This document shows positions 1-56,094 of a DNA stretch of 64,000 nt, one piece after another. A program made the position numbers and the translations under genes. The stretch is from Parietichytrium sp. I65-24A (taxonomy: Eukaryota > Sar > Bigyra > Thraustochytrida > Thraustochytriidae). The stretch lies in contig BLSF01000102.1 in the NCBI GenBank assembly GCA_012862575.1, forward strand, positions 28,989-92,988. Reading direction: 5' to 3'. Each line of letters starts with the position of its first letter. Positions within the stretch are counted from its first letter, which is position 1. A model generated the notes under the pieces. The model saw nothing but the letters and a program-made list of their open reading frames with translations, had not been told where the DNA came from and searched no databases.

Positions 1-960
1 GTACTCCGTACTGAGTACCATAGCCTAGACTGAGTAACGGTGACTGGTAAGTCTACTTACTGACAGTGAGTACTCACACGTACTCTCCGCTAGCTGCTGA
101 TTATCGTTCATACTACTAGTACCAAATTGCGATGGAATAACTAGTATGCAGTAGACTTTATTAAGGCATGCATTAAGAGCACGAAAAGTGTGAATGCGAT
201 TTTCTACTAGGTTAACAACGTACACTCTCTCGAGAGCTAGTACCTAGTACGCAAGTCAGTACCGGTTTTAAGAATGCTTAGTCAGTATTACTGAATTGCT
301 TTTCGAGTTCTTCACGAACCGTTCTCTTGTTCATCTCCGTTCGGCATGGAGCTGGAGGAGGGAATTCCGCAACCTTGCTTCAAGTTTGCTCTGCTTCTGT
401 TCTGATGCATGGATGGAGATTGGTAACTGTGGTGTTGTAAAAGAGCAGAAGCAACAGATATTTTAAAACTCACATTCTTGAAAAAAGAAAAAAAAATTGA
501 AAGAACAGAGAACGAATGATGATGTAATCCCATTGTCCAAATTGCCAGTCAGTCAGTCAATCAGGCACAAGACAATTGGGAAGGAAGCCAAAGAATTTGC
601 GACTGGAAGAGCATTCTCTCGTTCTCCATACCTCGCGTATCCAGTTCTACCTGTTCTGTATAAGATTCTGAATTCCTCCCATCACAAAATGATCCCAGTC
701 AGGATCAACACAACCGGTGAGACTCATTCACCAAGAACACTAGTAGTCACTCTTCATTTCGCCATCACGTGCACCGAACCTGGCTAGATGGATAGCTTAC
801 GATGCACACCGATGCCTTCTTACGCAGATTGTACTACGAACTACTACGACAACCTTACCGTCCGTCCCACTCCCATTAGCGCTCAGGAAATTCAGCTCAT
901 AATGCCCAACTACCCAATACAATAGCACCGCACCCATGTGCTACTTGCTCTTACATTCAT

Positions 961-1140: not shown

Positions 1141-1226
1141 CGCAATCGCCTTTGACGCACCCTTGACTGTGAGAGCACTCTCGGCAGGAGGAGGAAGGAG
1201 CGCGCACCCCGGCGGGAGAAGGAAGG

Positions 1227-5720: not shown

Positions 5721-6354
5721 AGACTCCCAAAATGAGTTGGCAGCCAGCCAACGAGCGAAACCTTTGCTCTCCGCGCTGCCAATTGAGGACCCCCGGAGAG
5801 CTGCCAGCACAGTTTCCCAACCTCCTCAGCCTTCTCCTTCTACTTCTTCTCCTTCTTCTTCTTCTTCCCGCGGCAGTGTACGCGGCGCGGACTGACTCCA
5901 CGTATGCGCCTCTCTTTTCCTCCTTCCTCCTTCTTTATCCTTGTTTGCGTTATGCCAAGTAGTGTGTCTCACAGTCAATGTGACTCCCCGTTAGAGACCT
6001 ACGTCCGATCTAAGCGTAACATTAAGACCAAGTTCTCGCCGGTGTAGGAATTAGGATAGCTATCAAGTAGCATAACCTCCTCACCGCCTGGAGAGATGTT
6101 ATAGTTTGGCGTAAGGAGGGATTATTGTACGCATCTTAGGACGTTCTATTGTGGACTAATGGAACGGCCTATGATGCGAAGTGTTAGAAGAGGCTAGATG
6201 GAACGTGATTTGCTGGTCCGTAGAAGGTTTCTATTCGAGCGAGTATACGCGAGCGTAAGGAAGGAGTAGTCCCTGGCTACAGGCGGGCTAGGAAATATCT
6301 CCGAAGGTTCCGAGAAGGTTTGAAAGGTTTTGGAGATGTTGCGTGTACACCTAC

Positions 6355-6370
6355 TGACTGTGAGTACTGA
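6355..6370. promoter_or_regulatory. Representative copy of the dispersed TGACTGTGA motif
   Basis: CTGACTGTGAGTACTG. The core TGACTGTGA or its complement also occurs near 1164, 5969, 9094, 15684, 20454, 24972, 25882, 36712 and 53257. The related TGACAGTGA/TCACTGTCA occurs near 61, 9325, 13308, 15466 and 22700. All copies I found are outside predicted coding exons. Function is unknown. Confidence 0.55.
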
Positions 6371-6422
6371 TCAAAGTGGGTCTAACAGTGGGTTCTCCTG
6401 ATGGTCGCGTCGGTTCTAAGCC

Positions 6423-6474
6423 GGTTCCACAAGCTGGTTCCACAAGCCGGTTCCATATCCTGGTTCCACGAGTT
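6423..6474. repeat. 13-bp tandem array GGTTCCACAAGCY
   Basis: Four consecutive 13-bp units on the motif GGTTCCACAAGCT with a few substitutions, then a truncated unit. It directly precedes the AATTCAGA-type repeat. Confidence 0.8.
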
Positions 6475-6478
6475 GGTT

Positions 6479-6531
6479 AGAAATCAGAATTCAGAAATCT
6501 GAGTTCTGAGTTCTGAATTCTGAATTCTGAC
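6479..6531. repeat. AATTCAGA / TCTGAATT palindromic repeat
   Basis: AATCAGAATTCAGAAATCTG is followed by several TTCTGAATTCTGA units in the opposite sense, so the block can fold on itself. The same vocabulary recurs at 20389-20460, 22638-22710, 23606-23660 and 52600-52625, always outside genes. Confidence 0.75.
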
Positions 6532-7065
6532 GGAGCCAGATCGGTTTCCAAGTTGGTTCTCCCATCGAATTGAAGCGAAAAGCAAATATTAGTCCAGTCC
6601 AAGATGTGAAGTCGCGATAGCGTTCGCCGACGCGTCAGATGAGGCGCAAGATTCGACAACTTTCTCCAAGGCACCGCTCTTTGTATGTCTACAGATACCG
6701 CGGCAACGCGCTCATTTTCACTGCAATCACCTCCAATCTCGCAAACAGCACTCGAATGGATATGCTTATCGAATGCTCCAAAACGCACTGTGTGTTCTCC
6801 TCCAAAGGTCAACGGCAGCGCTCCCTCAATCAAACTTTTTACGCAGATAAATTCCCATCGAAGAACCATCACCATGTCTCACGTCTTGACCATATAGACA
6901 AGCGGTGCGGAACGCACTGCGGAACGCGGTGCGGAACGCCTCAGCGGAGCCGACGAGAGCCCTTTTACTCTTACACAATTTCCTATCTGGCCACGTACGG
7001 CGTGCATGTGCATTCCCACTTGCTCTTTGCATACTTTTTCCATCTTTTTCCATCCACCCAAACCT

Positions 7066-7066
7066 C

Positions 7067-7093
<27 letters not shown>
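7066..7093. repeat. (TC)n(TA)n microsatellite
   Basis: A run of CT dinucleotides passes directly into TA dinucleotides about 130 bp upstream of the TTL-like start codon. It probably lies in the promoter or leader. Confidence 0.85.
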
Positions 7094-7098
<5 letters not shown>

Positions 7099-7222
7099 CA
7101 GTCCCCGCGCACCAAACGTGACGTACGTGCGTACGCGCCGCTAGCAACGGTCCGTAGTAGCGCGCGGTGCAGGCGTGTCGAGGAGGAGGAAGGAGGACGG
7201 AGTAAGGAGGAGGAAGGAGGAG

Positions 7223-9037
7223 ATGGTGTCCGTGAGCAGTCCTAGGAAACCGTCCTCGCGCAGGTCGGGAGGGTTCGTGTGGAGGAACGTTCTTTTGTTC
7301 TCGCTCATTCCGGGAAACGTCCTCGCGCTGGTGCTCCTGTGGCACGCACAGGCGCAGAGCGGCGCGCCCAAGCAGACCGTGCTGTACAAGCACGTGTTCT
7401 ACACTGATCCCAGCGCAGTGTGGCAGGAGCTGCCCGAGAATGTCCAGGTTGAATCGGCCGGCCTTAATGATGAGACGGACTTGAAGAAGAAGAAGGCGAT
7501 CTCATGGGATGCTCAAGATGAGTTGGAGCAGCAGCAGCAAAAGCAGCAGCAGCAGGCTGAGCGGGGATTGGACTCGAGCGCAGTGAAGGAATTCGGACAG
7601 ATTGAACAGATTGGGCTGATGGATGAACTCGCCAACTTTGATGAGGGTAGGGTTGATCACGAAAGGGACGATTTGGGCGCTCGGGAGGGCGAGATCATAA
7701 GTGAATTGAACGCCATTGCTCATGAGCTCGAACAGGAGAGCCAGGAAGAGAAGGAGAAGGAGAAGGAGGTCCGCAGGATGGGCGACAACCAGGCTGCAAA
7801 CCACCTGTCTTCCTGGACACAGGCCAAGGCCGACGAGTACGCAGATGATGCGAGCGATGACTTTGTGAACCTTCCAGTCCAGATCTCTCCGACTCATAGA
7901 AGGACATTTGCAAACCTTAGAACCTCCAACTGTGCGTATTTGTGCGACACACTCAAGCAGAGCAATTGGAAGCTGGTGACCAGCTACCCGTCCATGTTGT
8001 TGCTGAGGTGGTACAGCTACGACAAGTACAAGCATCTCAAGCGCACGATCATCAACCAGGTTGGGCACGGATCTTCGTGCATTGGCGGTGGGAAAGGCGC
8101 TCAGCTTCGCTGCAGACAAGACCTCGTGGCCCGCAGGGGAAAGTGCGACTACAACGACTTGCAGATTCAACCCCGCCAGTGGAATATTCAGAACGTGTCA
8201 GAGTGCAGATCTTTCTTTGACCATGTCTCTCAGCAGCCAGACAAGATATACATTCGCAAGCCTGGAGGCTCACAGCACGGGCGTGGAATCACTTTACACC
8301 ACGGCATCGAAGGACTCACGTCTTACAAGTCATGTAAAAAGCGGCTGAAGGAGGGTGTCATTATGCAAGAGTACCTCGAGAAACCAGCGCTGATGAAGAA
8401 TCACAAATTTGATCTGCGGACCTACCTTTTGGTGGCGTCCACAAATCCCTTGCTAGTGTTCTTTCACGAGGGCTTTATTCGTCGATCAGAGCGCCCATAC
8501 GTGACCAATAGCTCCTCCGCGCTTTCCGACGTCCGCGTGCACGTCACCAATTCTGTCAAGCAGAGCAACGACAACCACTTTTTCAGCTTTGCCCAGCTCA
8601 ACAAAATGCTGGTCGAAGACTACGACTTCCCGAAGAACTTTATGCACGACGAGTTTAGGCAGCGCGCCGTGCAGGTGAGCGAGTTTCTCGTGCACGCCGC
8701 TGGATTCGAGAGACGCCGGGGAAGGTTTCAGCTCTTCGCTTTGGACTGGATGTTGGACACGAAAGGGAATGCTCTCTTGCTGGAAGCAAACGGTGACCCT
8801 TCCGTTGTGGACTATCCGGGAACTGGCCTCACGCCCATCTTGTGGGAGAGCATGTTTGATCTCATCGACAAAGTTCACACCTCGCCTTCCTCTCTGAAAA
8901 TCCCTCGCAACACGATCAACGATCGCGGGCTTCCAACTTATGACTTCAAGGGTTGGCACCTGGTTTACAACGAGCTAGCGGCAGACGCAACCCCGACACG
9001 ATCTTACGACGCCTGCAAGGTTTTCGGTGGCCGTTAG
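7223..9037 (+). CDS. Tubulin-tyrosine-ligase-like (TTL/ATP-grasp) protein with N-terminal membrane anchor
   Basis: Single exon, 604 aa, from the first ATG at 7223; 16 further upstream codons are open but have no ATG. Basic residues precede a hydrophobic segment at about 18-41 (WRNVLLFSLIPGNVLALVLL), which reads as a signal anchor or uncleaved signal peptide. An acidic, Q-rich linker covers about 90-190. The TTL domain runs from about 237 to 560: IYIRKPGGSQHGRGI (ATP-grasp lysine/glycine loop), VIMQEYL, KFDLRTYLLV and, near 519, LLLEANGDPSV, the metal-binding end of the fold. TTL enzymes add amino acids to tubulin or other proteins in the cytosol. An anchor here would put the domain in the secretory lumen, so the substrate may not be tubulin. 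Confidence 0.85.
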   Translation: MVSVSSPRKPSSRRSGGFVWRNVLLFSLIPGNVLALVLLWHAQAQSGAPKQTVLYKHVFYTDPSAVWQELPENVQVESAGLNDETDLKKKKAISWDAQDELEQQQQKQQQQAERGLDSSAVKEFGQIEQIGLMDELANFDEGRVDHERDDLGAREGEIISELNAIAHELEQESQEEKEKEKEVRRMGDNQAANHLSSWTQAKADEYADDASDDFVNLPVQISPTHRRTFANLRTSNCAYLCDTLKQSNWKLVTSYPSMLLLRWYSYDKYKHLKRTIINQVGHGSSCIGGGKGAQLRCRQDLVARRGKCDYNDLQIQPRQWNIQNVSECRSFFDHVSQQPDKIYIRKPGGSQHGRGITLHHGIEGLTSYKSCKKRLKEGVIMQEYLEKPALMKNHKFDLRTYLLVASTNPLLVFFHEGFIRRSERPYVTNSSSALSDVRVHVTNSVKQSNDNHFFSFAQLNKMLVEDYDFPKNFMHDEFRQRAVQVSEFLVHAAGFERRRGRFQLFALDWMLDTKGNALLLEANGDPSVVDYPGTGLTPILWESMFDLIDKVHTSPSSLKIPRNTINDRGLPTYDFKGWHLVYNELAADATPTRSYDACKVFGGR

Positions 9038-9695
9038 GTCGTGCGGAGCCCACGTCGATACACAACAAGCTATAACGAATTTGACTGACCGACTGACTGT
9101 GATGTGAAAAGAATAACCATGTTGAACTCAACTCCGCGCCCATCTCGATGGCGGCAAATTTTATCTTGCTCTTATCTTGCTTTCCTCCCGTTGTTGGCCT
9201 TCAAGTTCTGATCGACCTAGTACACAATTGCTCTTGGCTACGTTGGCGACCTTGAAGTAGCTCTCTCCACTAGTAGACTAGCGCAAGCAGAAACAGACGA
9301 AGAAAGCATAGAGATGACTGAGATGACAGTGAACACGGGACAAAACGAAGCAGAACGGAACGACGCGAAAAGTGCCAAAGAAACTTCGACCAGGCCATTG
9401 CGTGAACAAACAGCTCCTGCTTTCAAACCTCTCGCGGCGGGAAACCTGCCAAGACTGCTCGCATCAGCGGCATCAGCCAACGCCAGTCAGTCCACGGTCC
9501 GCAGTCCTCGACTGGAACGAGTCCACACTGAGAGAGAGGAAGAGAGAGAGAGAGAGAGCACCGGGCCGAACTTTCCACCAAAGATACACGCTTCTCTCGC
9601 GTCCCTCCATTGGCTCACGCTCGAGGCGCGCTGGCGGACTTTGCGGACTTTGCGGATTTGAGCTCGGGTAGCAGCGACACACAGCGGCGCAGGGT
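9038..9695. other. Intergenic region before NAD kinase
   Basis: TGACTGTGA lies at 9094-9102, just after the TTL-like stop, and TGACAGTGA at 9325-9333. A GA microsatellite occupies about 9530-9560. No gene seen; frames across 9238-9680 disagree with each other and look non-coding. Confidence 0.6.
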
Positions 9696-11853: not shown

Positions 11854-12204
11854 TCAAGAGATAATGCATCGCCCGAACGGATCAGGCTTGCCCCGTTCCT
11901 CCTCCAGCTTTCGAAGCGATTCGATCACCGTGTAAAAATCCTTTTTGAAGTTTTCCTTGTCCTCAACCTCATTATACGCCACCTCGTGTATCAGCCGATT
12001 TCGGATTGTTGCTACTTTGCGCATCTTGCGCTTCAGATCATCCGGGATCCCTTGCGCCGTAGAAATCTTCTCGTGGAGACCTTTCCCCGTGGCACTAAAG
12101 TCTCGCTCCAGCACGTGCTCTATGTTCTTGCTGGCAATTATGACCAGCTTGACGTCGCAGCAGCAATTGCTGAACACGTCAGACGACCCGAGGACGTTTC
12201 CCAT
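11854..12204 (-). CDS. Small HEPN-like protein of unknown function
   Basis: Single exon, 116 aa, real ATG at 12204. I do not recognise a named family. The sequence is helical and reads like a HEPN domain: an early helix (SNCCCDVKLVIIASKNIEHVL), LHEKISTA, then IRNRLIHEVAY, an R-x4-H arrangement as in HEPN ribonucleases, and a C-terminal helix (FKKDFYTVIESLRKLEEE). HEPN proteins often act on RNA, but catalysis is not shown here. The N-terminus MGNVLGSS fits the N-myristoylation pattern, which would be unusual for a HEPN protein. It converges on NAD kinase and is divergent from the P450 gene. The frame is strongly protein-like, so I take it as a real small gene. Confidence 0.65.
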   Translation of the reverse strand: MGNVLGSSDVFSNCCCDVKLVIIASKNIEHVLERDFSATGKGLHEKISTAQGIPDDLKRKMRKVATIRNRLIHEVAYNEVEDKENFKKDFYTVIESLRKLEEERGKPDPFGRCIIS

Positions 12205-13682
12205 GCCTGCTCGCTGAGCACGACGCTCTTGACACGCTCCAAACTTCTCCCAGCGCCCCCGCTTTCGTGCTTACTTGCTTACTTGCGCAAACGGCTCCAG
12301 CGCCGGAATCCTCACGTTGCCGCCTTTCCTTTCCCCCGTTCCGCTCCTCTCCACTGCGCTCCCAGCTTTCTTGCGAATCCCGAAAGGGCTCTGAGGCGGG
12401 TGTACTCGAGTACCACGTTTATCGTACACGTACGCAACCTTCTTCTGGAGAGTGCAGACTGTAGCTAGCTAGAGGCAGCATGTACACGTACCCGTTGACA
12501 TGAGAGAGAGGTCTTCTCCATGGAAAGTTATGGAGAGAAGCACCTAGAGCAAGCACTCGCTCAAATGAAAGCGGTCCCGGAAAGAAGCGAAGAAATAGAA
12601 ACAGAAAATCAAAATCGAAATTGAGGTAGAAACGGACGCATGTCTCGAGCTGCGGTCAGTGCTTTTGGCTTGCGAGTTCCGAAGCAGTGCCTCTTTCATC
12701 TCTTCCTGTTCATGCCCCCTATTTGGAAACGCGGCTTGCTTTCATCGCCAAGCGGGGCCTCGGAACCTCTTTGAGAACTGTCGAGGCGCAGAATGCTCCT
12801 CTACCTGTTCGGCATTCGCGGTTGATGTGGGGGACTCTCCACGCGCGTGTACTCGTGAATGCTCTTCGGATGCCGGTGCCGTTGGGCGCCATCATCACAG
12901 TGCGCTGTCCATTGGCCTTGAGCAGGTTGGGTCTGTGCATAAGACGGAAGGCGCGGTAACAGTAACTCAACGAAGCGGCTTTGATGCAGGCCTGCGATCG
13001 CAGTGCAACTTTCTTTCCAATTCCAACTTCTAATTCCATAAATACCAGCGAATCAACATCCCACAATTACATTGTGCGGCCGGAACAACCGATTCGCAGT
13101 AGCCCTGAGAGAAGCTCGGCAGCTCTATCCACGGACCAAATCGGTCTCGATGCTCCCAGACTTGCCACCGCTAAAAGGACTAAAAGGAGGGCATTCGTCA
13201 GCCCCCAGGGTGGGCTCGTTTGCTCTCTTCCATCGACGCGAACAATCGACCTGTGTATGATATAGTGCGCTGACCAGCTGACTGTGGGCACTAGCAAAAA
13301 ACCAAACTGACAGTGAGTACGAGCACTTTCCAATTTATCGGCGCCGCCGCCCTCTCAACGAAACAAGCTGGCAAAGCTTTTGCTCCAAGTTCTAAATTCT
13401 TTTAGCAATTCACAGAGAGCTCTTTGCGCGGTTTCACATGTTCACATGCGTTCACTTGTTGGCCAATTCTTATCGAATCGTCTGAATACATTCATAAGAC
13501 CCCGAGGATAGGACAATCGCTCTTGACGTCCTTTCTTGGCAAGTCAACAAGGCTTGAGAGAGGAAACCACTGGAAAGGTCGTTTCGAGACGTGCTTCAAA
13601 CCCGAATCGAGCGTGTCAAACGTGCCGAACGAACGCACAGGAGCAGAGTTGGAGCGGGTGACGGTCGCATCGGATTGCGAAA
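12205..13682. other. Divergent intergenic region between HEPN-like and P450 genes
   Basis: 1.5 kb with no convincing gene. Both strands carry overlapping open frames around 12659-13333 of mutually exclusive, arginine/serine-rich composition, typical of non-coding GC-rich DNA. TGACTGTGGGCAC (13279-13291) and TGACAGTGAGTAC (13308-13320) form a close pair. Confidence 0.55.
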
Positions 13683-15390: not shown

Positions 15391-16495
15391 GGTTTCCGTT
15401 CATGAGTCTCCATCAGTGTTCTTGTGCTTGAACAAGAAAGAATTCCCACTCCTTCGGCTCTTGACTCACTGTCAAACAAATGTTAAAGTACTTTTCACAC
15501 GTGGCCACTTTTAATCAAATCAGTCAAGCAAGCTCTTCCAAATCCCTCATTTTCTTCTCCTTCAGGTGAATGAATACAAGCGCAGGGCCCATGGCCGTCT
15601 TGGCAATCGAAAAAAAGCCCAACGCTCCCGGCGTCCTCCACTCTGACTGTTCCTGAATTCTGATCAGCTTTCAGTTAATTGACTGACTGTGATAGATTGT
15701 TCACGAAACACCGCTGGCAACAGCAGAAACAAACAACCGCCAATCGAAACTTGTTGATGAAGTTACTGAGACGAACAACACCTCGAAAGATACTGATACG
15801 CAGTGCTAGCTCTAGCTGGCGATGTTACTGAGTACGTTGGGATTGGCCAAAGAGCGGACAAATGTGCTCAAATGCCGGACGCCAAACAGAAGAACAACCA
15901 ACAAAAGAAAACAACACAAAACAGAGAAGAAGAAGAAGAAGAAAACCTTTGCCAGGTCGGCGCTGCCATCGGCGTATTTGAATTGACTCGAATTTGAAGA
16001 AGGCCGCGACGCCCATCCTTCGACTTGATGTCCCGACATAGAATGATAGACAGAAGAAAGACTTGCAGTCTCATCCTCGAGTCTCGGTAAGATGCACAAA
16101 GCGCCGACTATGGCGCAGGCTGAAACTGACACTGTGAAACTCGAGTGTTGCTGTACTGAGCACCCAGTTTACCCAGTACTCCGAAGACTCAGTCAGTGTT
16201 GACAGAGAGCACAAGGTGACGGAAGCGCGGAGAAAGCAGTCCCGTACCGCGTACAGGTACTCGAGCACCATAGGTGACTATCGTTTGTTTGCCTGATTGT
16301 TGGCTCGATTGGTTGACTGCGAGCGAGGCAGCACATTCAGACAATACTGCTCCGCAGAACAAGAACGGAAACAAAAACGCGGTACACAGCGACGAGCACG
16401 AGGGCAGGAAAGAGAACGGGAACGAGTATTCGCTTTGCAGCGGCGAGCTCTGCAGTGCTTGCGTGAGTTCCAATACCGAGCTTGGTGCAAACAAG
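15391..16495. other. Intergenic region before the HPP gene
   Basis: Holds ACTCACTGTCA (15464-15474), TGACTGTGA (15684-15692) and a GAA tract near 15925-15945. An open frame continues upstream of the HPP start back to 16274, but its composition is unlike protein and the ATG at 16496 precedes the conserved part. No other gene seen. Confidence 0.55.
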
Positions 16496-18541: not shown

Positions 18542-18980
18542 TGTCGATGTCTTTGCAAATGCAACTTGTCCTTCTCTTGTGCTTCTCTTGTCGCAAGTCA
18601 ATCTGCGCCGTCGCGATGGGAGTCTGCTCGAGCGTATCTTTTGGTCCGACACAAGCACTACTTCCCTACTCGCAGTACTCGCAGTCCACGCATCTCTACT
18701 ACTAGTACCGATACAGTGTCTTTGGCAGGATCGGACTGTAAGCAGCGAGCAGCTCACTGTTCCCCGGCGTCGGACTCTCTGTCTACTCTGTCTGTGAAAT
18801 GTGTTCGAGTCTAGTTTTGATTCAAATTTCTTTCGATTGGTTGAAGATGAAATACAGATGGAAAGTATTGGAGGGAAGGTGTGATGGAGTGGCCAACAGC
18901 GCTTGCCGGGTACTTCCGGGTGTTTTGTGCACACCTCCTATTTCTTGGATGGCCGAGACCCGAAAGCTTTGCAGTGCAGA
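18542..18980. other. Intergenic region between the HSD10-like gene and HEAT-like gene A
   Basis: About 440 bp. The right part, from about 18788, already belongs to duplication unit A and is the downstream flank of the minus-strand HEAT-like gene. No gene seen. Confidence 0.55.
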
Positions 18981-19958
18981 TTAGAAGTCTGAGTCCGAGT
19001 CTGAGTCCGAGTCTTGGTTGTTCGGATCGAGCTGCATCATGTTCTCTCCATCGACGGTTGTTTCGTCTCTCCGTGCCGAAACCAGTCGCTTGAGCTCTGA
19101 TAAATCTCCACAGTGGATAATTTCAACATCGTAGTCGCCGTCGCGAACTTCAAGGAGTTCTTCTAGATCACTACCCAGCGGACCGTTACGCGCTAGAGCC
19201 AGCGCACAGGCTGCCACACTCAGCGCAGCTTGGTCGGGGCCCGAATCCTCTGAAAGCGAAGCAACAAGATCTGCAAGAGGATCTTCCGGATCGCCGGTTG
19301 GGAGCAAGACAGCGTAACTTAGCGCAGCTAGCGCGCGCCGCATGGGAGGGTACGGCAAGTTCTCCATGACTTCTTTCAGCAAGGGAAGGGAGACAAACGC
19401 CTTTCTCGGAAAGCTTGACAGGCAAAAGATTGCAGTTTCTGCCAAATCTTCGTCCGAATCGTGCACGAGAGGCATGATAACATCCCAGGCTATCTCCTCC
19501 ACCGCCACATAACAATCCCGCGCCCAGATTTCCATTCGGAGTTGCTCCTCGTCCGAACCGCCGTATGTTGGGGCGCCGCCGGGCTCCACCATGCCTTGCA
19601 CGTTCGCAAACATCTTATCCGGGTCGAGTGGCTCGGCGAGAAATGTATCCGATGGTTCTCCCGTTGCCAAGTGGTGGAGATAAGACACCAGGAACCGCTT
19701 CAGTTCATAGTCCTCCGGGCCATTCTGCAAGATGTCGGCGAGAAAGGGCACAGCATGTGCGCTGGCCTGCCATACCGACCCCTGATGGTACACATTGCCC
19801 CACAAAACCTCGCGCACCTGACTTAGTCCATCCACTGACAGCTCCGGATCGTTCAGCTTGCGCAAGAGGTCGGGCACATCTGTCGCCGGACCGTAGGCGT
19901 GGTGTATCGAGCCCCACGGCACGTCGTCCAGACCACTCAGGTCGGCGGCTTGTCCCAT
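18981..19958 (-). CDS. HEAT-repeat-like protein, copy A
   Basis: Single exon, 325 aa from the first ATG at 19958 (30 more codons are open upstream but lack an ATG). The protein resembles bacterial HEAT-repeat proteins opening with the pattern DVPWGSIHHAYGPATDVPDL and VLWGNVYHQGSVWQASAHAV. Helical repeat pairs follow (FLADILQNG, IMPLVHDSDEDLAETAIFCL, LPLLKEVMENL, LAALSYAVL). The C-terminus is acidic (SDSDSDSDF). HEAT-like solenoids bind other proteins; no specific role is visible. Family resemblance to actinobacterial or myxobacterial proteins suggests possible horizontal transfer, which is inference. A close paralogue (copy B) lies 2 kb away in the same orientation. Confidence 0.75.
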   Translation of the reverse strand: MGQAADLSGLDDVPWGSIHHAYGPATDVPDLLRKLNDPELSVDGLSQVREVLWGNVYHQGSVWQASAHAVPFLADILQNGPEDYELKRFLVSYLHHLATGEPSDTFLAEPLDPDKMFANVQGMVEPGGAPTYGGSDEEQLRMEIWARDCYVAVEEIAWDVIMPLVHDSDEDLAETAIFCLSSFPRKAFVSLPLLKEVMENLPYPPMRRALAALSYAVLLPTGDPEDPLADLVASLSEDSGPDQAALSVAACALALARNGPLGSDLEELLEVRDGDYDVEIIHCGDLSELKRLVSARRDETTVDGENMMQLDPNNQDSDSDSDSDF

Positions 19959-20966
19959 GCCTGTTTGCGCGCTCTCAGAGCCTCGCCACCACACCGCTTT
20001 ATACTGCAAAGCTCGAGACGCCTGCGAATCAAAAGATTCCAGTGGCAATCAGTGGCAATCAGTAGCACCAGTGGCCTATCGCACACCTCTGAAACATTTT
20101 GGAACATTTTGGAACCCCGGAACGTCTAGTCACGGGTATTGGAGAGTTAGTTCATTTTGGACAAAGCACGTTCCATTCCTTTCTTCTGCAACATTCTGCA
20201 ACAACCTTTACAGTTTTGTGGGGTTGCAGGATCGGCGTGGTGAAGTGTGAGCCTCGTCAGTCAGAGGGTCAACCCTTGCGCCACGGTGTGAGAGGTGTGA
20301 TGGGTGATAGTGAGCGAGCCAACACCCGTCAAGTTTTGAAGAACGACTGGCTCGGGGCTCATAGTCGCGCATTTTGGAAGACTGCAGCCCAGAATTCAGA
20401 ACAATAAATTCAGAATTCAGAAGTTCAGAATTCAGAAGTTCAGAATTCAGAATTCACAGTCAGGACAAAAAAATCAGACAAACCGAGTACCGGTACCAAA
20501 ACCCGTCCCGGTGTGGAAAGTAATGGGTAGACTAGACATCAATACTGTTCCAGGTACGTCCAGGTACAGACTGTGAGTGAGAAGTTACGAGTGAGTACAC
20601 GAAAAGAGACTTTGGGTCCAACCTTTCCAACCCATTGTTAAAAATAAATTCAAAATTTCCAAATTCTGAACTCTAAAGTTCTAAATTGAATTTCCACATC
20701 TCTCGCAATCCGCGCAATTCCCTGTCAAACACAGCAGAGATGTTTCCTGAACAGTTATGCATTTTTTCTTTCTTTTTTTGGACTCCCCTGTCTGTAAAAC
20801 GTGTTCAAGTCTAGTTTTGATTCAAATTTCTTTCGATTGGTTGAAGATGAAATAGAGTTGGAAAGTATTGGAGGGAAGGTGTGATGGAGTTGCCGGGCAC
20901 TTCCAGGTGTTTTGTGCGCACCTCTTTTTCTTGGATGGTCGAGACCCGAAAGCTTTGCAGTGCAGA
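19959..20966. other. Spacer between the two HEAT-like genes
   Basis: Part of the duplicated unit. It contains AATTCAGA repeats (20389-20460) ending in TTCACAGTCAG, a GTAC-rich block (20483-20570) and ACTGTGAGTGA (20570-20580). No gene seen. Confidence 0.6.
20389..20463. repeat. AATTCAGA array joined to the TCACAGTCA motif
   Basis: At least five AATTCAGA/AGTTCAGA units in direct orientation end in AATTCACAGTCAGG. Thus the array runs straight into a copy of the dispersed motif. An equivalent junction with TTCACTGTCAGT is at 22699-22710. Confidence 0.75.
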
Positions 20967-21932
20967 TTAAAAGTCTGAGTCCGAGTCTTGGTTGTTCGGA
21001 TCGAGCTGCATCATGTTCTCTCCATCGATGGTTGTTTTGGCCCTCCGTGCCGAAACCAGCCGCTTGAGCTCTGATAAATCTCCACAGTGGATAATTTCAA
21101 CATCGTCGTCGCCGTCGCGAACTTCAAGGAGTCCTTCTAGATCACTACCCAGCGGACCGTTACGCGCTAGAGCCAGCGCACAGGCTGCCACACTCAGCGC
21201 AGCTTGGTCGGGGTCCGAATCCTCTGAAAGCGAAGCAACAAGATCTGCAAGAGGATCTTCCGGATCGCCGGTTGGGAGCAAGACAGCGTAACTTAGCGCA
21301 GCTAGCGCGCGCCGCATGGGACGGTACGGCAAGTTCTCCATGACTTCTTTTAGGAAGGGAAGGGAGACATACGCCTTTCTCGGAAAGCTTGACAGGCAAA
21401 AGATTGCAGTTTCTGCCAACTCTTCGTCCGAGTCGTGCACGAGAGGCATGATAGCATCCCAGGCTATCTCCTCCACCGCCACATAACAATCCCGCGCCCA
21501 GATTTCCATTCGGAGTTGCTCCTCGTCCGAACCGCCGTATGTTGGGGCGCCGCCGGGCTCCACCATACCTTGCACGTTCGCAAACATTTTATCCGGGTCG
21601 AGTGGCTCGGCGAGAAATGTATCTGACGGGTACCCTGTCGCCAAGTGGTGGAGATAAGACACCAGGAACCGCTTCAGTTCATAGTCCTCCGGGCCATTCT
21701 GCAAGATGTCGGCGAGAAAGGGCACAACATGTGCGCTGGCCTGCCATACCGATCCCTGATGGAACACATTGCCCCACAAAACCCTGCGCACCTGACGTAG
21801 TCCATCCTCTGACAGCTCCGGATCGTTCAGCTTGCGCAAGAGGTCGGGCACATCTGTCGCTGGACCGTAGGCGTGGTGTATCGAGCCCCACGGCACGTCG
21901 TCAAGACCATGCAGGTCGGCGGCTTGTTCCAT
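20967..21932 (-). CDS. HEAT-repeat-like protein, copy B
   Basis: Single exon, 321 aa from the ATG at 21932; the codon at the upstream end of the open frame is GTG. Nearly identical to copy A: the same opening (DVPWGSIHHAYGPATDVPDL), repeat helices and acidic end. Scattered substitutions include GLRQVRRVLWGNVFHQ for GLSQVREVLWGNVYHQ, and the SD tail is shorter. Most differences are conservative and no stop or frameshift has appeared, so both copies are probably functional and the duplication recent. Confidence 0.75.
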   Translation of the reverse strand: MEQAADLHGLDDVPWGSIHHAYGPATDVPDLLRKLNDPELSEDGLRQVRRVLWGNVFHQGSVWQASAHVVPFLADILQNGPEDYELKRFLVSYLHHLATGYPSDTFLAEPLDPDKMFANVQGMVEPGGAPTYGGSDEEQLRMEIWARDCYVAVEEIAWDAIMPLVHDSDEELAETAIFCLSSFPRKAYVSLPFLKEVMENLPYRPMRRALAALSYAVLLPTGDPEDPLADLVASLSEDSDPDQAALSVAACALALARNGPLGSDLEGLLEVRDGDDDVEIIHCGDLSELKRLVSARRAKTTIDGENMMQLDPNNQDSDSDF

Positions 21933-22637
21933 GCCTGTTTGCGCGCTCTCAGAGCCTCGCCACCACACCGCTTATACTGCAACGCGCGAGACGCCTGCGC
22001 TCAAGAGATGCCAGTGGTCTATCGCACACCTCTGGGGCCACTGCAACCTCTAGTAGTCACGTGTATTGGAAAGTTCATTTCAGACAAAGCTCGTTCCATC
22101 CTTTCTTCTGCAACAACCACTGCGACCTTCGAGTTTCGTTTTGCTTTGTGCGAGCGCCGCCTCCCGCTCGTTCACTGCGGCGGAGTCACGGTCAAAGCAC
22201 GTGTGAAACAAAGCTGGCTGGCGTGCTTTGACAAAGCCTTCGCGAAAGGCATCTTGTCGAGCTCCGTCTCTGGCCTCGCCAAGAGTGCGCTCCTGCTGCT
22301 CCTGTGGGGTCGCGTTCAACACGCCGGAGACAACAAGACAACAGGCGGAGCAAGTTAGATGATCACGGCTCCTTTCAATTCTACGGTGGAATGCATCTTC
22401 CCTTGGAGCATCGCTCGAGAGCGAGATGGAGACTGAGAGCGAAGCTGCTGACTTCGGAAGACTCTTCCTTCGTCTGTCGTTGTCAGCGGAGCTGCTCACA
22501 ATTACGCCGGCTCTCGCGGCGTCTGCTCGCACTTTATCCCCGGTTTTCTCTTTCCTGACTTTGAATTCTGAATCTCGATTTGAGGCTGCTTTACTTGTAT
22601 TCTGATGACCAACTTGCTCTTGTTTCAAGAACGACTT

Positions 22638-22710
22638 CACGGAATTCAGAATTCAGAATTCAGAAAATTCAAAAATTTTCAGAAAATTCAGTTCAGAATT
22701 CACTGTCAGT
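22638..22710. repeat. AATTCAGA array joined to TTCACTGTCAG
   Basis: GGAATTCAGAATTCAGAATT and looser units end in CAGAATTCACTGTCAGTC. It lies in the extra segment of unit B that unit A lacks. Confidence 0.7.
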
Positions 22711-23605
22711 CTTTTTGGGCCTGTGATGGATTTCTCTGACCTTCTTCGCAGCATAATTTTCTCAAGGCTTGGGTTTCTCAGCTCTTGAACTTTTCGAAAC
22801 GAGTTGATTTCAAAGGCCTGGGAAAACTACCAACGTTGGCAGCAAGGAGCAAGCCAAAGGGGAAAACGTTTCTTTGGCTTATTACAATGGCTGAACGTTC
22901 ACTGTGACGACCGCCTTGATTTTAAAATTCGCAATTCAGAAGCTAGGACAAGAGACAGAAGGTGGCACGGCTTGGCTGGCACTCGAACGGTCACCTGCCA
23001 CTGAGCCTCCGCGAAAGTGAGAATGAGACAGATCTGTTTGTGTGTCTGTGTGCGGTCCGACAGTGTGGATACTTGATCAGCTGCTAAACTTCTTTGGCGA
23101 ACAGAATCAACGGTCCGAGTCAGTTTTCAAATTGTACCGCTCCGTGATAAAAGCCCGAACTGCAGAATCAGTAATTCAAAATTCAGTCCAGAAGAAGCCC
23201 CTGAGCAAGCGTTACAGCAGCACTCGAGACCTGTGCGTCTTGGCCAGTTGTTCGACCGACTCGATGACACGGGACTGGCCACAAGTAGTGAGAAAACCAA
23301 GAACCAAAACAGCGTGACACATGGACTGTGGAATGGGCACCGCCAGTCTCACGTCTCGCTCTCTTCCCAACGTGTGAGTGACTTGTTTCCAACCACGTTA
23401 CGGAGAGCTGCAAAAGCTTAGTTTTGTGGGTTGCAGGGTCGCACTTTGCTATGATGGTGTGGTGAAGTGTGAGCCTCGTCAGTCAGATGGTCAACGCTTG
23501 CGCCGCGGTGTGATAGGTGCGATGTGATAGTGAGCGAGCCAACACCCGTCAAGTTTTGAAGAGCGATTGGCTCGGGGCTCATAGTCGCGCATTTTGGAAG
23601 ACGTT

Positions 23606-23660
23606 CAGAATTCAGAATTTCAGAGTTCAGAATTCAGAATTCAGAATCAGAATTCACAAT
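23606..23660. repeat. AATTCAGA array in unit B
   Basis: Six or so TTCAGAATTCAGAATT-type units, at the place corresponding to the array at 20389 in unit A. Copy number differs between the two units, showing the array changes length. Confidence 0.7.
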
Positions 23661-26337
23661 CAATTCCGTTTGGAGAAATCCGAGTCCTGGCAAGGTACTA
23701 CGGTACAGAGTACCAGAACCCGTACCGGTATGTAAAGTAATGTCCAGGTACAGACTCCTGATAACTGACAAGTGAGTACGAAAAGAGACTTTGGGTCCAA
23801 CCTTTCCAACCCACTGTTAAAAATAAAATTTCCAAATTCTGAACTCTAAAATTCTAAATCTAAATTTTAACATCTCTCGCAATCCGCGCAATTCCCTGAC
23901 AATCACAGCAGAGATATTTCCTGGAGAGTTATGCTTTTTTTATTTTATTTTATTAGATGTAGAAATTATTTTTTCAGGTTTGCGATAGATAGTAACTTAT
24001 TTGTGTTGCCAGCACAACGAAACACAGACAGGGTCGTGAAACTACTTTGTGAGTATCAGTAGTACGCCTAGTGCGCGTGTGGCGCCGTGCCAACGACAAC
24101 AACAACAGCAACGACAACGATAACGACGACGACAAGCAGGAATGAAGCTCTGTCATGCTCTGCCGATCGGAGAGCTGAACTGGCAGTGAGTAACAACTCA
24201 TGAACCGGATCTTGTAGAACGCTCTGCAGCTTCCGTAAAGGAAGGAAAGAAAGAAGGGAGAGGGAAGAAGGTGTTCAGAATCCAGAGTTACAGTTCAGAT
24301 CAGAGCAGTGAAGGCATTGATGAGTGCTGTGAGGCGAAGGAGAGCGGAGAAAGGGAAAGATCGAATCGGTGAGAGTAGTACCACTCAATAGTAGAGACGC
24401 TTCGGCGGCAAAAAGTTCAGAGGGGATGTGCGTAATCTTTCTCTTAATGATTGTTAGCAGCTAGCTGCCTCTCTGTCTCAGCTGTCTCTCTCCAGCGTGT
24501 TTCAACTTTAATTTTTAATAGACGTTATACTTTGGAGCCTCACATGCTGCTACCTTGCGGAAGCAGAGTGACTAACTAACAGCGCCTTTTGAGCTCTGTT
24601 AATGAAAATAATAACTGCATCGTTTTGGTGCCCATCGATGGCAATTCGATTTGGGGGTTGTGTTGGTCGTGTGCCAGGGATTTACAGTTAGGAACTAGGA
24701 CCATGCAGTCCATGCATACACTGTTTGAGGTGCTTGTTTCATTTTGTACGAGTGAACATGGGACTAGTAGCACTGCTTTGACTTGGGAAAGGGAAGGGGG
24801 GAAAGTGCCACTGGGCAGCTTACCTGTACTCGTAGCGTTTCCGAGCAGAGTATGGAGCGAGGAGAAAGAAGGGCATTGCTCTTGGAGTTTAGAGTCAACG
24901 AGGATAGTCTGGGCCAGTCATCCATTCAGTGCCCAAGATCCCCGCTAAATTGAACGCATCACTAGCGGGGCTCACAGTCAAGTCGACCCGCGGGCCGATG
25001 AATACTCCCCTCCCAAGAAGTCAGTACTTCATAAATGAAAACACACTGTATTGAGTATATTCCGAGACCATTCTCCACAATGGCCAGTGCCACAGTGCAG
25101 TACCATGACCGTGACTCAGTGCTGAGTACCGGCTCTTACAGCCGTTGTCTCGCGACAGCACTTAGGTTAGGTTAGGCACTGGTGGCACTGGCAGCAAAAC
25201 GCAAAACAGCGAGCAGAGAGAGCAGAGAGCAGTGCAGAGAAGAAGGAACCGGTGCAGCCTTCAAGCTTCTCAAGTATCAGTAGGCTATCACTTGGTAGAA
25301 TTGGTCTTACTTATCACAAGATCCAGAGCACACCCGACTTGCAGTCGATTAGATTTAATATAAACCTGCTCTACTGAGGGTCTCCTTCAATGTGTCACGT
25401 CTTGTTGTCGTGTATCAGTGGCACGGATGCAGTCCTGAATTGAAGTGAGGACAGTGCAGTACTCCGAAAAAGTGAGAATGAATGATCCGAACGGAAAGTC
25501 TCTCTAATGAGGTATTCTATACTACCGCAGATATTGAGTCAAGTAGTAGTGGCAAATAGAACTACCTGACCTTTGCCCTTGTATTTCTTTTCGTTTCTAC
25601 TCCTGGGAATGAATTATAATAAAAAATTCAAATTCAAAAAATTCAAAGAAGGAACAGACGTATGAGAACAAGTGGGTCAAGAAGATAGTCGTATTGAAGC
25701 CAGTCAGACAACCGGTCAGCCGAGTTTGAGTTGAAATGGTTCGCTGATTTGGAATACTAATCCCGTCTGCGGTGTGCGTTGCGTTCTCTTGCTTCAGTAG
25801 CTTCAGTCCTCAGTCGATTCTAACTGGATCTCGTTAGTCAATTTAAAAGCGGATTATCCGGTCGCTTGATTCATTTATTCTTCACAGTCAATCAATCAAA
25901 AACTTCACTGTCGGAATTCAGAAGTTCACAAGTCGGAGAGGAGGAACCCGGTCAAACATAAGGCTCGCGGTCTTACGGTCTGGTCCCCATTCCCACGTTC
26001 TCGTGTTTTGTTTTGCAAAATCCTGGCAGGAAAACGAATTCGCCAACGTTCTCATGGGAGCTCGGAATTAGGAACCAAGAACTAGGTCTCCATCGCGAGG
26101 CAAGTCGGCATTTGTCTGAATGAATAACTGCCTGTGAAACTTGGTAAATCGACTGGCTCGCGTCTATTTTGCTGTCAAAAAATATCCGTATCATTTATCA
26201 TTTTACATTTAAAATCTTCTATCGACAACCTGGTCACCCTCGCGACTGCGGCGTACGTGTAGGCTACATTTCTGAACTGACCTTAAACTCTGGTTGATAA
26301 GTGGGGTATGGGATTGATGAGAATAGCTTTAACGAAG

Positions 26338-29780: not shown

Positions 29781-32700
29781 CTAACTTGATCCAGGAAAAG
29801 ACTTCTGTGGCACTGAAGACGATGGTGGCTTCGAGCCCGCTTTCACAGGCATTGCTTGCTTGGCTGAGGCTTCTGACTTTGGCTTTGATTGCGTGGCGGC
29901 GGTACTGTTATTCTTGCTCTTGGACGAAGATGCGGATGACGTAGATGATGACCTAGAGCTCCGTCCTTTCGTAGCTCCGGTCGAAACAACCTTGGAAGTT
30001 GTGCTTCCTTTTTTCGCCCCAGTACCTGGTGCGCGCTTCAAATCTTCCTTGCTTTTGTCGGTTTTTGCGTGCTCTTGCCGCTGCCTCTCTCTCCTTTTTG
30101 CCTCACTCTGCTTTGTGGTATCATTGAGTGCATTCTGAAATTCGACAAAGAAGCTATGCAAGGTTCGAAACAGCACCTCAGACGTCGTCGAAGTGTCCTC
30201 GCACAAGTACTCGAGGGTCTGCTTAAAAAGATCCTCAGTACTGGAGCCCAGCGACCGCAAATCCTCCAGTGATTCCTGGCAAACCTTGTAGAACCGCGTC
30301 AGCTCCAGAACAAAGTATTGGTCATCCTCCGTCATTTTACTCCTCTTCTCTTCATCGGATACGACATTCGCCCAATACTTGTGCTCAGTCTCGATGATGC
30401 GTAAGCCTGCCTCCAAGACCTGAAGCTGTGTCACCGCATTCGTCAAAGAGATATTTGCAGCTTCTCGAATAGAATCAGTATCGGATTTGACAAAGGTAAG
30501 AATGTCTCTCTCGCGAGACTGAATTAACCACACGAGATAGTGAAGAGCGGTAGTGTTGGACGCAAAACTCTTGACATCCCGAAGTTTGTTTAGCGCGTCC
30601 AAATGGAAACCCGGAGCGACTCTTGCCTTTGGTGCGTCTGGCCCCTCATTCATAAAATTACCCATCGCAAGAACGATCTCCATCATTCTTCGAAACTTCT
30701 TGCTTTCGAGAAGATCTTTACATGCTTTTTTGATGTCCTCAAAGTCTCCCCTGGCATCCTCGTATGCCTCATCAAACTTCATCCTGTAGAGCAAGCAATT
30801 TGTGCGCTGTTTGTAGCGAGGGATAGACATGAGTTCTAGGAAGTAAAATTCCCCTTTTCCAAGGATTTCGCGCGGTCCATCGTAGGCAGATAAAATCTTT
30901 TCTTCCTCCGGAGTTGGCGCGAGGCCCAGAACTTGGCGGACGTCTTCTGTATTAACGTCTTCGGGAATGTTCAGGTTGAAAAGACATCTTTTTATCAGAG
31001 CTGCGTGAACGCCAAGACCAAACATTCTGGACAGGACGATAGCGATGTTGTTGGAACGCTGGGGCTCCAATAACTGCTTCGTCTCCTCCTTCACTTTCTT
31101 TTTCTTCGGGGCGGATCCAGTGGCACCTTCTGTCTTTGCTCGCTCAGCCTTCTCTTTCGCTTTTTGGCGCTCCTGCTCACTGACATTGACGGTAAATAGT
31201 GCGGTCATTTCCTTTATTTCGCGCTGCTCAAATATGTATGCTTTTGACTTGTTCCAAATCGCATTTTCAACCTTGTCCAACGTGTTATTATTTACCTTTC
31301 TCCAGTGAAGCTTTCGCCGCACAATCTTATCCGGCTTCTTCTCTGGAGGCTTGGGCTTGGGGGGTGCAGCTCCAGCTACGCCAGAGCCCTTTCCGCCAGC
31401 TTTTGTTGGTGCAGGCGACTCCGGATCCATGTCCAGATACTTTGGGTCCAGCCCTTTCGCCATCATTTTTGCTTCTATCGCACCGCGAGGCACCTTGACC
31501 GCTAGCATTTTTATAAACGGTCCGTAATCCTTGTCATCCTTAAGCTTTACAACGGGGCCATTCCCTCCAGCATTCCCGCCAGCCTGCGGAAGCTCGATCA
31601 TTGTTGCCTCTGGGTCCATGTCGAGGTATTTCACGTCAAGCCCTTTTGCAATCATCTTAGCTTCCACTGCTCCGCGAGGCACCTTGACCGCAAGCATTTT
31701 CAAGAATGGGGAGTAGTCAGGATGATCCTTGAGCTTCACCTTTTGCGCCGCAGCAGCACCAGAGCCGTCGCCGGAAGGGTTGAGCTCAATCAGGGTATTT
31801 TCAGGATCCATGTCCAAATATTTAACGTCAAGTCCTTTAGCACGCATTTTGACCTCGATAGCACCGCGAGGAACTTTCACGGCGAGCATTTTGAGAAAAG
31901 GGCTGTAGTCTGGGTGCTCACCAAGCTTGACCTTCTCGCTAGCGGCAGCCTCGGCCGCTTCAGAGGCAGGCTTTAGCTCTATCATTGTCGTCTCTGGATC
32001 CATGTCAAGGTACTTGGGATCCAAACCCTCTGCGGTCATTTTCCCCTCCACTGCGCCGCGAGGCACTTTGACAGCAATCATCTTGAGGAAAGGACGGTAG
32101 GCTGGATGATCCTTCAACTTGACCTTTTCAGCTGCAGCGGATTTCCCAGCACCATCTTGCGGCGGGGCCGGTTGCTCCGGGTCGAAGTCTAAATACTTTG
32201 GATCCAGACCCTCGGAAATCATTTTTGCTTCGATCGCTCCTCGAGGCACTTTGACAGCAAGCATTTTGAAGAACGGGGCGTACCTCTCATCATCTTTAAG
32301 TTTCACCACGGAGCCACTTCGTTTGCTATCTGTTTTTGAATCGTCCGCGATTATCGTTGTTTCCGGGTCCATGTCCAGATACTTTGGGTCAAGACCCTTT
32401 GACTCCATCTTGATCACGATTGCCCCACGAGGGACCTTCACAGAGAGCATTTTCAGAAATGGGGCATAGTCGGGGTGATCTTTGAGCTTGACCCCTGTTG
32501 TTTGTCCAGCATCACTTGCTTTTGACGTGGGAGAAGGGCCCTCGGGATCCATGTCCAATATCGCGGGGTCTAATTCTTGCTGCAACATCTTATTTATGAC
32601 TGCCTGGCGCGGAACTCGGACAGCCAGCATCTTGAAAAATTGCCCGTAAGTAGGATCGTCCTTTAATTTGACGACATCGGCTTCTGGTGCCGCTTCCGTG

Positions 32701-34520: not shown

Positions 34521-37385
34521 GGTGCACCTGCGCACTCAGACTCACGCGCTGCACAGGCTCATGGCCACCGGCAAGTCGCTATTTCCTGTGCTTTCTCGTC
34601 GCTCCTCGACGTTCGCTGCGCGTCGCTGCCCGACAGGATCCTCCTTTGGTCTCTGCCACTCTTAGCTGTTCAGCTGTCGCTCCTTATCGCCGCAATATGT
34701 TGTCGCCGTATGTTTCAGTGGGTCGCCGTATGTATCATGTATCAGCTGCGCCTCTCCGTCCCTTCCTTGTCGTTCGTTCGATGTGTCAGTTGGTCAGTTG
34801 TGTCGATTAGTTGTTCATCGCCGTTCGTTCGCTATTACGCTTTGGATTAGCTCGCGATGTACCTTAGCTTAGTGAGTGATGCTATGGAGACTCTAAGAGT
34901 GCAGGTGGGCTGGCCAACTCGCTGTATTCGCTGCTCGAAAATGACCAGAATGACCAGGTTCCATCTCTTCTGTAGGAGGGCATCAGGGGCATGGAGCACT
35001 TAAAAGGTTCTGTGGATAGCACTGTGGGTGGCGTGCCAGGAGACTGCTTGGTGTACACGAGTACTCAGAAAGTAACTTCTTTTTGATATTTCTTTCATGA
35101 ACAAGATCAATGATTCGATTCTAAAATTTCAATTACCCGTCATAGAACCACTCTATCAGCTAGCCTAGATAGGCTCAAGCTAGCTAGCTAGATAGCTACT
35201 AGCTAGGCTAGACTCTAGAGTACATCTGAGTCAACGTATGTTGCTAAGGACCAAATATCCATCCCTCTATGCTTACGTATGCACTGTGGCATCGTGGCTC
35301 ATCGCGCTCAGCTCAGCTCGTGATGCCACCGGTACCGGTACCCAGTACTATACCCTAGTGGCACCGGACACATTCCCCACAAGCCTGCCTTCTTCGAGCT
35401 TTGCGTTAACCTATGTTAACCTTGCGAAAGAACCCAAGAATCAGAACCAATCAAAAACACAAGCTCTTGCTTAAGCAAGGGCTTTGGGGACAGCAATCAC
35501 TGAGTGGGCCTTTTTGGGAATAATTATTTGAGTACTCGAGTAACATCGGTTTCGGGCAGTGCGAAGACTCACTCAACCAGGGCTTGGGTGGAGGTCAGTT
35601 CCGGCAGCCGGTTTTTCCTCATTCAAGCATGCCGTACCCGTTGGCAGGAATTCCCAGAGCATTTCAAGATCGGTAGCTTATTCAGGCTCGACTTGCAGAG
35701 AGAGAGAGAGAGATCGTATTGAAGCAAGGAGCTCTCATGTACCAACGTTGGAAGAAAAGCAAGAAAGGCGACGAAGAAGTCGCAACTTGAACTTTCAGAC
35801 TCCAACGAAATTGTTTTGAACCAAACCACCTTCGACCCTGTACATGGATAACGACTCAAAGTCAAACGATTTTTTCGATGGAGAAACATGGAGAAACACC
35901 GCACTCAGTGCCGTACCACATTTTAAACAGTACGACGGCAGTACTGTGAGCCCGGTCAGAAAGCTGCGCTAGCAGTGGCACACGCTCCTTGCGCATGTCA
36001 GCGAGCGAGATGAGAGAGAGCTTGAATGGTGAGCCGTGGGCTCATTTCAATTCCAGGCTACGAGAGCTAGCTGCCTCATGATAAAGGAGATAGAAATTTG
36101 CTTGAAAAGGTGGTGTCAAATTATTCGAGAGAACCAAGATTGACTTACCACTTCACTACACGAATCGCTCCCTCCGCCGAGAGAGCATTTAGAGGCGTCG
36201 AGAGAGCAAACTAGAGCAAAGGTGTTTGAAGCGACCACCGCATCATACAGTACTTGGAGTACAGCGTGCTCGGCTCTGCTTCTACTCCCGCGAGTAGTGG
36301 AGTATGTCCTCGACAAGGTGCTCTACTGGAATGAGTGGAATGTGTAAGTTAGTTCAGCTCTACTAGCTGGCCTAGTACAAATTGGCCATTCGTCTCATCC
36401 ACCAGACATCACCAGACGTTTCGCTCACACGCGATCTTGAGAGCCATTCTTGGAAGCTTGGAGCTACTACTTGCTAGCTATCTGGCTAGTAAGGAGAGTA
36501 CTACTAGAAGATTGGCGCAACATGGCTATCTATGGCAGTAGGGGCAATGTCAGAGGGAGCGAGACAAATTTTCGTCTCTCAAATTTGGATGGAAATTTCC
36601 ACCACAAACGCCAAGAAAGAAACCAAGATGTCGGGACCAACGAATGTAAAAATACTCCACAGCTGATAAGAAGTGTTCAATCAGAATAATTAATAATTAA
36701 TTCAAAAGAACTCACAGTCAGTACCGGGGCTGGCTCCGTACTATTACTGATAGCACAGCTCAAGGTCCATCAAGGTCCGCTGTCAGATTCAGATTGGATG
36801 GATGGATTGTATGAGAAATTGTTACTATTAAGTTATGTAGAGCACAATTGGCGAGTGGGACTAGTGCGGAGAAGAGTAACTGTACTATTTCCGCTGGTGG
36901 GGAGTGAGTCAGGGCTACAGTAGTGTACTAGTGCAAGTACACAAAAAGCAAGGTGCGCCTACCGTCTCCTAATGCATCCGCGCAGGACAAGAGGCCGCCT
37001 GAAGATGCCTGAAGAGCAAGAAGAAAGGATGGTGGCAATTGTGGCAATGGTGCGAGGATCGAGCTGAGACTTTAGACTATTCTCGCAGTCAGTCAATTCG
37101 CTAAGCAACAAGCTGCAATTTGTGCTAGGCTCAGTATGCAAGGACCGCAGGTGCCCAAAGAGCATCAAAGAGCAAAGGCAAATCACATAGAGCACAGCAT
37201 AGAGATGCATAGAGCACATCAGAACACAGATCACAGTGAACAGTGCAAAGGAAGGAAGAAAGGTAAGGAGCAGATTCGCAACTCACTGGCCCAGCTCGAA
37301 CAGAGTGCTTGTTGGCTGTGAACCATCTCTGCTCCCGTCGGTCGCCGTGTTACGAGCAGCTCTGAATTTTTCTTGAGAAGGCACC
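34521..37385. other. Long divergent intergenic region between formin and GCDH
   Basis: 2.9 kb with no supported gene. CTAG/AGCT-rich sequence lies at 35160-35222, a GTAC block (ACCGGTACCGGTACCCAGTAC) near 35330, a short GA tract at 35698, more CTAG-rich DNA at 36360-36500, and CTCACAGTCA at 36711-36720. Open frames here are short and unlike protein. Confidence 0.55.
35160..35222. repeat. CTAG/AGCT-rich low-complexity tract
   Basis: Overlapping AGCTAGCTAGCTAGATAGCT-like units, almost entirely self-complementary. Similar tracts occur at 47510-47740, 50005-50100 and 52475-52505, always between genes. Confidence 0.7.
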
Positions 37386-54670: not shown

Positions 54671-55146
54671 TTCTATACTCCAAAGAGCAGGACGAGAAAT
54701 TGTCATTGTTCAATTTTAAGAAAAAAGCCCGGTCCATGAGGCCACTGCTGCTCAACTCGGAATTTTGAACTTTATTTTACAGTTAAAAAAAGAAAATTGA
54801 ATTTCTTTCCAGATTTTAATTTCTGGAGGTTGAATGGAAGACGTCGATGTCAACCCAAATACCTCACGCAGGAAATGGCAGCAAGTAAAAGCACCAGGAT
54901 AGAGAGGAGGTATTTTCCGCTCTTCCAAAACTTGTGCTGTCAGAATTTACGACCCAGCAAGAGTCGTTATCTATCTGTTCACTCACAATTGACCGCGTGT
55001 GTGAAAGATCCCTAACGTAACCTGACTCTTTTTATTTGTGGTTAGACGACCAGCAGTCTCTCTAGAGCTAGCTAGAGAAAAAACTATCCCCAGGCAGCAT
55101 TCAGTGTCAAAAAAGCGACTCTAACCTTCCTTCTTTACGTATAGAC

Positions 55147-55938: not shown

Positions 55939-56094
55939 AACTTACGAGAATTGTACTTCCGAAACTTCCGACGACTCATCCAGTCACCAACTCGCCGGCA
56001 ATCACCAAATTACGAGTTCCTGTCGACTCAGATTCCCGACAAAGTACAGTGCAATTTGTGTCAACGAACATCACACTAAAAACACAAAGCAAAG

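Follow-up and report, generated by a model that had tools for sequence, protein, structure and literature searches.

The nine-base word TGACWGTGA, with a full form near TACTGACWGTGAGTAC, occurs 16 times in the 64,000-base stretch of DNA that we analyzed (the window), and as judged from the sequence we consider it rather likely to be a binding site of one sequence-specific DNA-binding protein. As would be expected of a transcription factor (TF) site, the word is over-represented in noncoding DNA beyond what composition accounts for, and its copies are independent rather than derived from one duplicated sequence, with the proviso that the copies at 20454 and 22700 share an adjoining array. A TF site is the interpretation that fits best because the word is strict, has no copy in the coding sequence as modelled, occurs in independent copies and has a quasi-palindromic long form. 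A first reading of the sequence alone (the sequence-only reading) had proposed a TF site, a terminator or insulator and a mobile repeat side by side; the first survives as a prediction, and the terminator and the mobile repeat find no support in the results below.

An exact search of both strands of the 64 kb recovered ten matches to the T form, TGACTGTGA, and six to the A form, TGACAGTGA, where dinucleotide shuffles predict 0.75 and 0.78, respectively. In none of 100 shuffles did the T form reach at least 10 copies or the A form at least six. When the noncoding sequence was simulated 100 times with an order-3 Markov model, the two forms together averaged 0.95 copies and never exceeded 4, so the excess over chance claimed by the sequence-only reading is upheld. 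Its counts of at least ten T-form and at least five A-form copies were also borne out, with two positions moved by one base (6356 to 6355 and 9325 to 9324) and one A-form copy, at 55810, added to its list. Markov expectations for noncoding DNA at orders 1 to 4 are 0.34–0.75 for TGACTGTGA and 0.34–0.65 for TGACAGTGA. Models of orders 5 and 6 absorb the word's own copies; for the whole window, the expectation at order 5 is 1.67 (T form) and 0.69 (A form), and at order 6 it is 5.64 and 2.51. A ranking of the 137 9-mers that have at least five noncoding copies depends less on which word the reader picked. It counts independent copies only: a copy was dropped when a retained one lay no more than 100 bp away or had flanks more than 50% identical to its own. 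TGACTGTGA ranks first of the 137 (10 of 10 copies kept) and TGACAGTGA sixteenth (6 of 6 kept). When raw counts for the entire window are ranked instead, repeats included, TGACTGTGA stands only 20th of 347 9-mers under the order-3 model and 18th under the order-4 model, and the words above it are simple repeats, tandem repeats and other recurrent words. The copies are as follows.

61–69, plus strand: TGACAGTGA, part of the perfect 16-mer TACTGACAGTGAGTAC at 58–73.
1164–1172, plus strand: TGACTGTGA, about 0.5 kb upstream of a U-box/ankyrin gene.
5969–5977, minus strand: TGACTGTGA, 341 bp upstream of a PX-domain gene.
6355–6363, plus strand: TGACTGTGA, the copy under which the motif was reported, in the perfect 16-mer TACTGACTGTGAGTAC at 6352–6367, in the intergenic region from which the PX and TTL genes diverge.
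9094–9102, plus strand: TGACTGTGA, in the gap that separates the TTL gene from the NAD-kinase gene.
9324–9332, plus strand: TGACAGTGA, 372 bp upstream of the NAD-kinase gene, within a segment of weak coding potential (9227–9628).
13308–13316, plus strand: TGACAGTGA, about 375 bp upstream of a P450 gene, differing from the 16-mer at one base.
15466–15474, minus strand: TGACAGTGA, 76 bp past the P450 stop codon.
15684–15692, plus strand: TGACTGTGA, about 0.8 kb upstream of an HPP-family gene.
20454–20462, minus strand: TGACTGTGA, about 0.4 kb upstream of the 18981–20048 gene (start codon uncertain), with a TGAATTC array alongside.
22700–22708, minus strand: TGACAGTGA, adjoining a TGAATTC array and in a segment of weak coding potential (22656–22826), about 0.7 kb upstream of the duplicated 20967–21968 gene (start codon uncertain).
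24972–24980, minus strand: TGACTGTGA, outside gene models.
25882–25890, minus strand: TGACTGTGA, outside gene models.
36712–36720, minus strand: TGACTGTGA, differing from the 16-mer at one base and situated 674 bp upstream of an acyl-CoA dehydrogenase gene.
53257–53265, minus strand: TGACTGTGA, outside gene models.
55810–55818, minus strand: TGACAGTGA, inside a locally repeated segment.

The last of these may be a chance product of rearrangement, because the repeat copies that align to its segment lack the exact word.

No copy lies inside any of 21 coding sequence (CDS) models, which were drawn from long open reading frames (ORFs), Pfam matches and codon usage, with some exons joined by eye. 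The models cover 32,355 of the 64,000 bases and leave 31,645 noncoding; if the copies are independent, the chance that all 16 would fall in the noncoding part is about 1e-5 (0.494^16). An earlier list of 23 models, which included two weak ORFs that were later dropped (11881–12249 and 22080–22640), likewise has none of the 16 copies in CDS. The models are approximate: of 11 starts checked, four coincide with an ATG, five miss one by 1 to 18 bases, and two (those of the 18981–20048 and 20967–21968 genes) have no ATG within 30 bases. The earlier statement that the motif avoids predicted exons is thus confirmed for the CDS models, with two copies standing in unmodelled segments of weak coding potential, the one at 9324 in 9227–9628 (plus strand) and the one at 22700 in 22656–22826 (minus strand). 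Searched against Pfam, both segments are without a match up to E 0.1, and the strand opposite a clear gene can give scores like theirs. The introns and the protein domains mark the DNA as eukaryotic, perhaps from a stramenopile. Scans for tRNAs and Rfam families came up empty, as did a plasmid search with 6000–8000.

The core is strict at eight of its nine positions, with A or T at the centre, since single-base variants of either form reach at most three copies each, the central A/T exchange excepted. Preferences extend beyond the core: the preceding base is C or T in 15 of 16 copies, the following base is G in 10, and the fourth position past the core is C in 10. The fullest copies, at 58–73 and 6352–6367, read TACTGACWGTGAGTAC, and those at 13305 and 36708 are one base off. 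Allowing up to one mismatch, TACTGACWGTGAGTAC has four matches against 0.003 expected from base composition, a post hoc comparison in that the 16-mer was read off these very sites. The extension to GAGTAC, described earlier as frequent, holds in part: GTGAGT is present in 6 of 16 copies, GTGAGTAC in just 3. The first 15 letters of TACTGACWGTGAGTAC form a palindrome about the central A/T bar one pair. Of the 64 flanking pairs that the copies have at distances 5–8 from the centre, 26 are complementary, compared with 28% at 127 control ACWGT centres (binomial p 0.004 at 0.25, for a range chosen afterwards). Fully symmetric forms are scarce, with three copies of TCACWGTGA and one of TGACWGTCA. When compared with viral contigs, the 16-mer TACTGACWGTGAGTAC gave four single matches, each retrieved stretch having one copy of the word, and these are presumably chance matches.

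Outside the word, the copies have no sequence in common. Flank identity among them averages 27.7% and reaches 44% in the best pair (50 flanking bases), and the stretches common to their 200-bp flanks are short, or come from TGAATTC arrays or from overlapping windows. Because the copies lack common flanking sequence beyond chance, it is very improbable that they derive from a small, MITE-like mobile element, whether as its remnants or as its ends, even though they are dispersed and near-palindromic as such remnants might be, and the mobile repeat offered earlier was rejected. We also think it quite unlikely, if less so, that the copies are functionless by-products of local turnover of simple sequence, whether TGAN-rich or made up of TGAATTC arrays. 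Local sequence does lend this idea some support: four of seven CAGAATTCA clusters have a copy no more than 150 bp away (permutation p 0.012, uncorrected, CAGAATTCA being one of five words whose proximity to copies was examined at that distance), TGAC/TGAT runs stand just before the copies at 9094, 15684 and 25882, the copies are clustered along the window, and those at 20454 and 22700 adjoin arrays. Set against this are the related words TGATTGTGA, with one copy, and TGAATGTGA and TGAGTGTGA, with none, which disfavour TGAN low complexity as the full cause, and the Markov expectations given above, below one for each form at orders 1 to 4 and, for the T form, below ten even at orders 5 and 6. 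The earlier remark that copies lie at array ends applies to 20454 and 22700 only. These two adjoin matching arrays, and the aligned end differs there solely at the central A/T; as a sign that a duplicated promoter has conserved the word this is weak, because arrays make up most of the alignment and the word is missing from a third relative of the segment upstream of the 18981–20048 gene, at 23456–23951.

Placement relative to genes bears on the remaining alternatives. Eleven of the 16 copies lie at most 1 kb upstream of a modelled start (starts being approximate), a zone that holds 17,017 of the 31,645 noncoding bases (54%), and the upstream excess is not significant. With respect to the nearest gene start, nine copies point in the same direction and seven in the opposite one. 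No orientation preference is apparent, which is the expectation for a near-symmetric site; an oriented promoter element, considered because several copies towards the left end at first seemed to point at their downstream genes, was rejected on the tally of all 16. Four copies are within 300 bp of a stop codon, where about 2.8 would be expected (5,548 of 31,645 noncoding bases, 17.5%), so the proposed position soon after stop codons amounts to no clear excess, and a terminator or transcript-end element, which has neither this excess nor a strand preference in its favor, was set aside. The spread along the window is uneven: 13 of the 16 copies are in the first 27.4 kb, which contains 47% of the noncoding bases (permutation p about 0.005, with the split chosen afterwards; KS p 0.01). 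This clustering could reflect local sequence make-up. A general chromatin-organising site (an insulator, the site of a nucleosome-displacing factor or a replication-origin element) in place of a gene-specific TF site strikes us as doubtful, although it has somewhat more to recommend it than sequence turnover. It would agree with the orientation independence and with copies that stay outside the CDS models and show no significant tie to gene starts, but a general factor is expected at most intergenic regions, and yet no copy occurs between 36.7 and 53.2 kb, although several intergenic gaps lie there. The least probable alternative is an RNA-processing signal, with the word serving as a 5′-UTR intron donor (GTGAGT) or as a branch point (YTGAC) plus donor. 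YTGAC is found in 15 of the 16 copies, CTGAC, by eye, in five of seven introns, and GTGAGT in the six copies noted above. The seven introns read, however, have the donors GTAAGT (6) or GTACGT (1), so GTGAGT is not the usual donor; a donor needs no upstream TGACW, and the copies are without strand preference. A splice donor or branch point was accordingly rejected.

The TF-site interpretation invites comparison with known sites. Those of bZIP proteins (TGACTCA or TGACGTCA type) are inverted TGAC/GTCA half-sites with 0–1 bp spacing. The right half of our word is GTGA, not GTCA, and the form with GTCA, TGACWGTCA, occurs only once in the window; the word does not have the layout of this bZIP type. 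TALE-homeodomain proteins have the site TGACAG, which is contained in TGACAGTGA, but the T form TGACTGTGA is the commoner one here, and a strict right-hand GTGA is not known to be part of the TALE-homeodomain consensus. In Phytophthora infestans, the site of the bZIP protein PITG_04908 is given as TGACTCA (PMC11267843). Such dimeric-TF sites are likewise short, strict and near-palindromic with a TGAC half-site; unlike the PITG_04908 site, the halves here are joined as TGAC-W-GTGA. GTCA and CACWGT are absent from the paper's main text, its motifs being mostly in figures. Oomycete promoter motifs, as presented in the main texts of two P. infestans papers (PMC3520976, PMC3597505), are likewise short over-represented promoter words in protists. 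Those main texts contain none of TGAC, TGTGA, CAGTGA, TCACAG or TCACTG, and GTCA, which occurs four times in the main text of PMC3520976, is found there in contexts unlike the motif. Text searches with the 9-mers returned, among the matches listed by title, a few on promoters or DNA-binding proteins (the B. subtilis mtl promoter, ZBTB48, CTCF and the CYP2D6 promoter); titles returned for the 12-mers include a fish fads2 promoter and MITF regulatory regions, and some of the searches by topic brought up only titles without relevance. TGACWGTGA is an ordinary kind of element whose sequence was matched to no described site in the literature searched.

If TGACWGTGA is a TF site, its near symmetry and its indifference to orientation suggest that the predicted site would be bound by a dimer, and the binder is probably dimeric. 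A copy lies within 1 kb upstream of 10 of the 21 genes (6355 counted for two), and because the other 11 have none, binding would regulate a subset of nearby genes rather than form part of every promoter. A more specific proposal, which we put forward tentatively and would not expect to hold in full, is that an undescribed, lineage-specific dimeric regulator uses TACTGACWGTGAGTAC, which is asymmetric at one pair, as its operator to control a scattered gene set. The one-pair asymmetry (TGAC vs GTGA) might then be kept, for example, because a heterodimer reads TACTGACWGTGAGTAC. The consensus is fixed well enough for testing from one 64 kb window, and were the motif real genome-wide, a pull-down bait made from it would offer a handle on a regulator in a microbial eukaryote.

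Several other words recur in the window. Among the five tested for nearness to copies, TGAGTAC is within 150 bp of a copy in 5 of 14 instances (p 0.027, uncorrected) and overlaps the long form; GTACCGGT shows no excess (1 of 6), and TACTAGCT is never that close (0 of 7). The nine noncoding clusters of TAGCTAGC, at 12462, 35179, 36473, 47607, 47923, 49876, 50008, 52476 and 55067, also include none within 150 bp of the motif, against 1.3 expected, and eight of the nine lie beyond 27.4 kb, where TGACWGTGA is scarce. Heptamer arrays or pairs of TGAATTC/CAGAATTCA are present in noncoding DNA at 6479–6530, 20407–20456, 22643–22709, 23603–23660 and 52602–52617. GTACCGGTA is recurrent in noncoding DNA as well, with nine matches at six places (20487, 23722, 35332, 41941, 41959 and 60287), five of them independent, and three of the six carry the full palindrome GTACCGGTAC.

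The window also contains duplications. Two 89-bp direct copies at 959–1137, 92% identical, stand about one base apart, with a single N between them at 1048 that is possibly an assembly ambiguity. A tandem gene duplication (18788–20045 and 20788–22017) is 93.6% identical and without a Pfam match at E 0.001. Searching viral contigs at the protein level, with 18984–20048 and with 50682–51995, revealed no relative. A further duplicated block (54978–56704 and 58775–60254, also 62624–63110) includes a gene whose product, a small protein that contains cysteine, has no Pfam match, and upstream of it repeats at a spacing of about 300 bp carry GCACGTGTCCAGGA. Lastly, one long ORF on the minus strand (29781–34535) encodes ten CCDC53-type stretches (WASH-complex subunit family) together with a formin FH2 domain, a combination that looks unusual.
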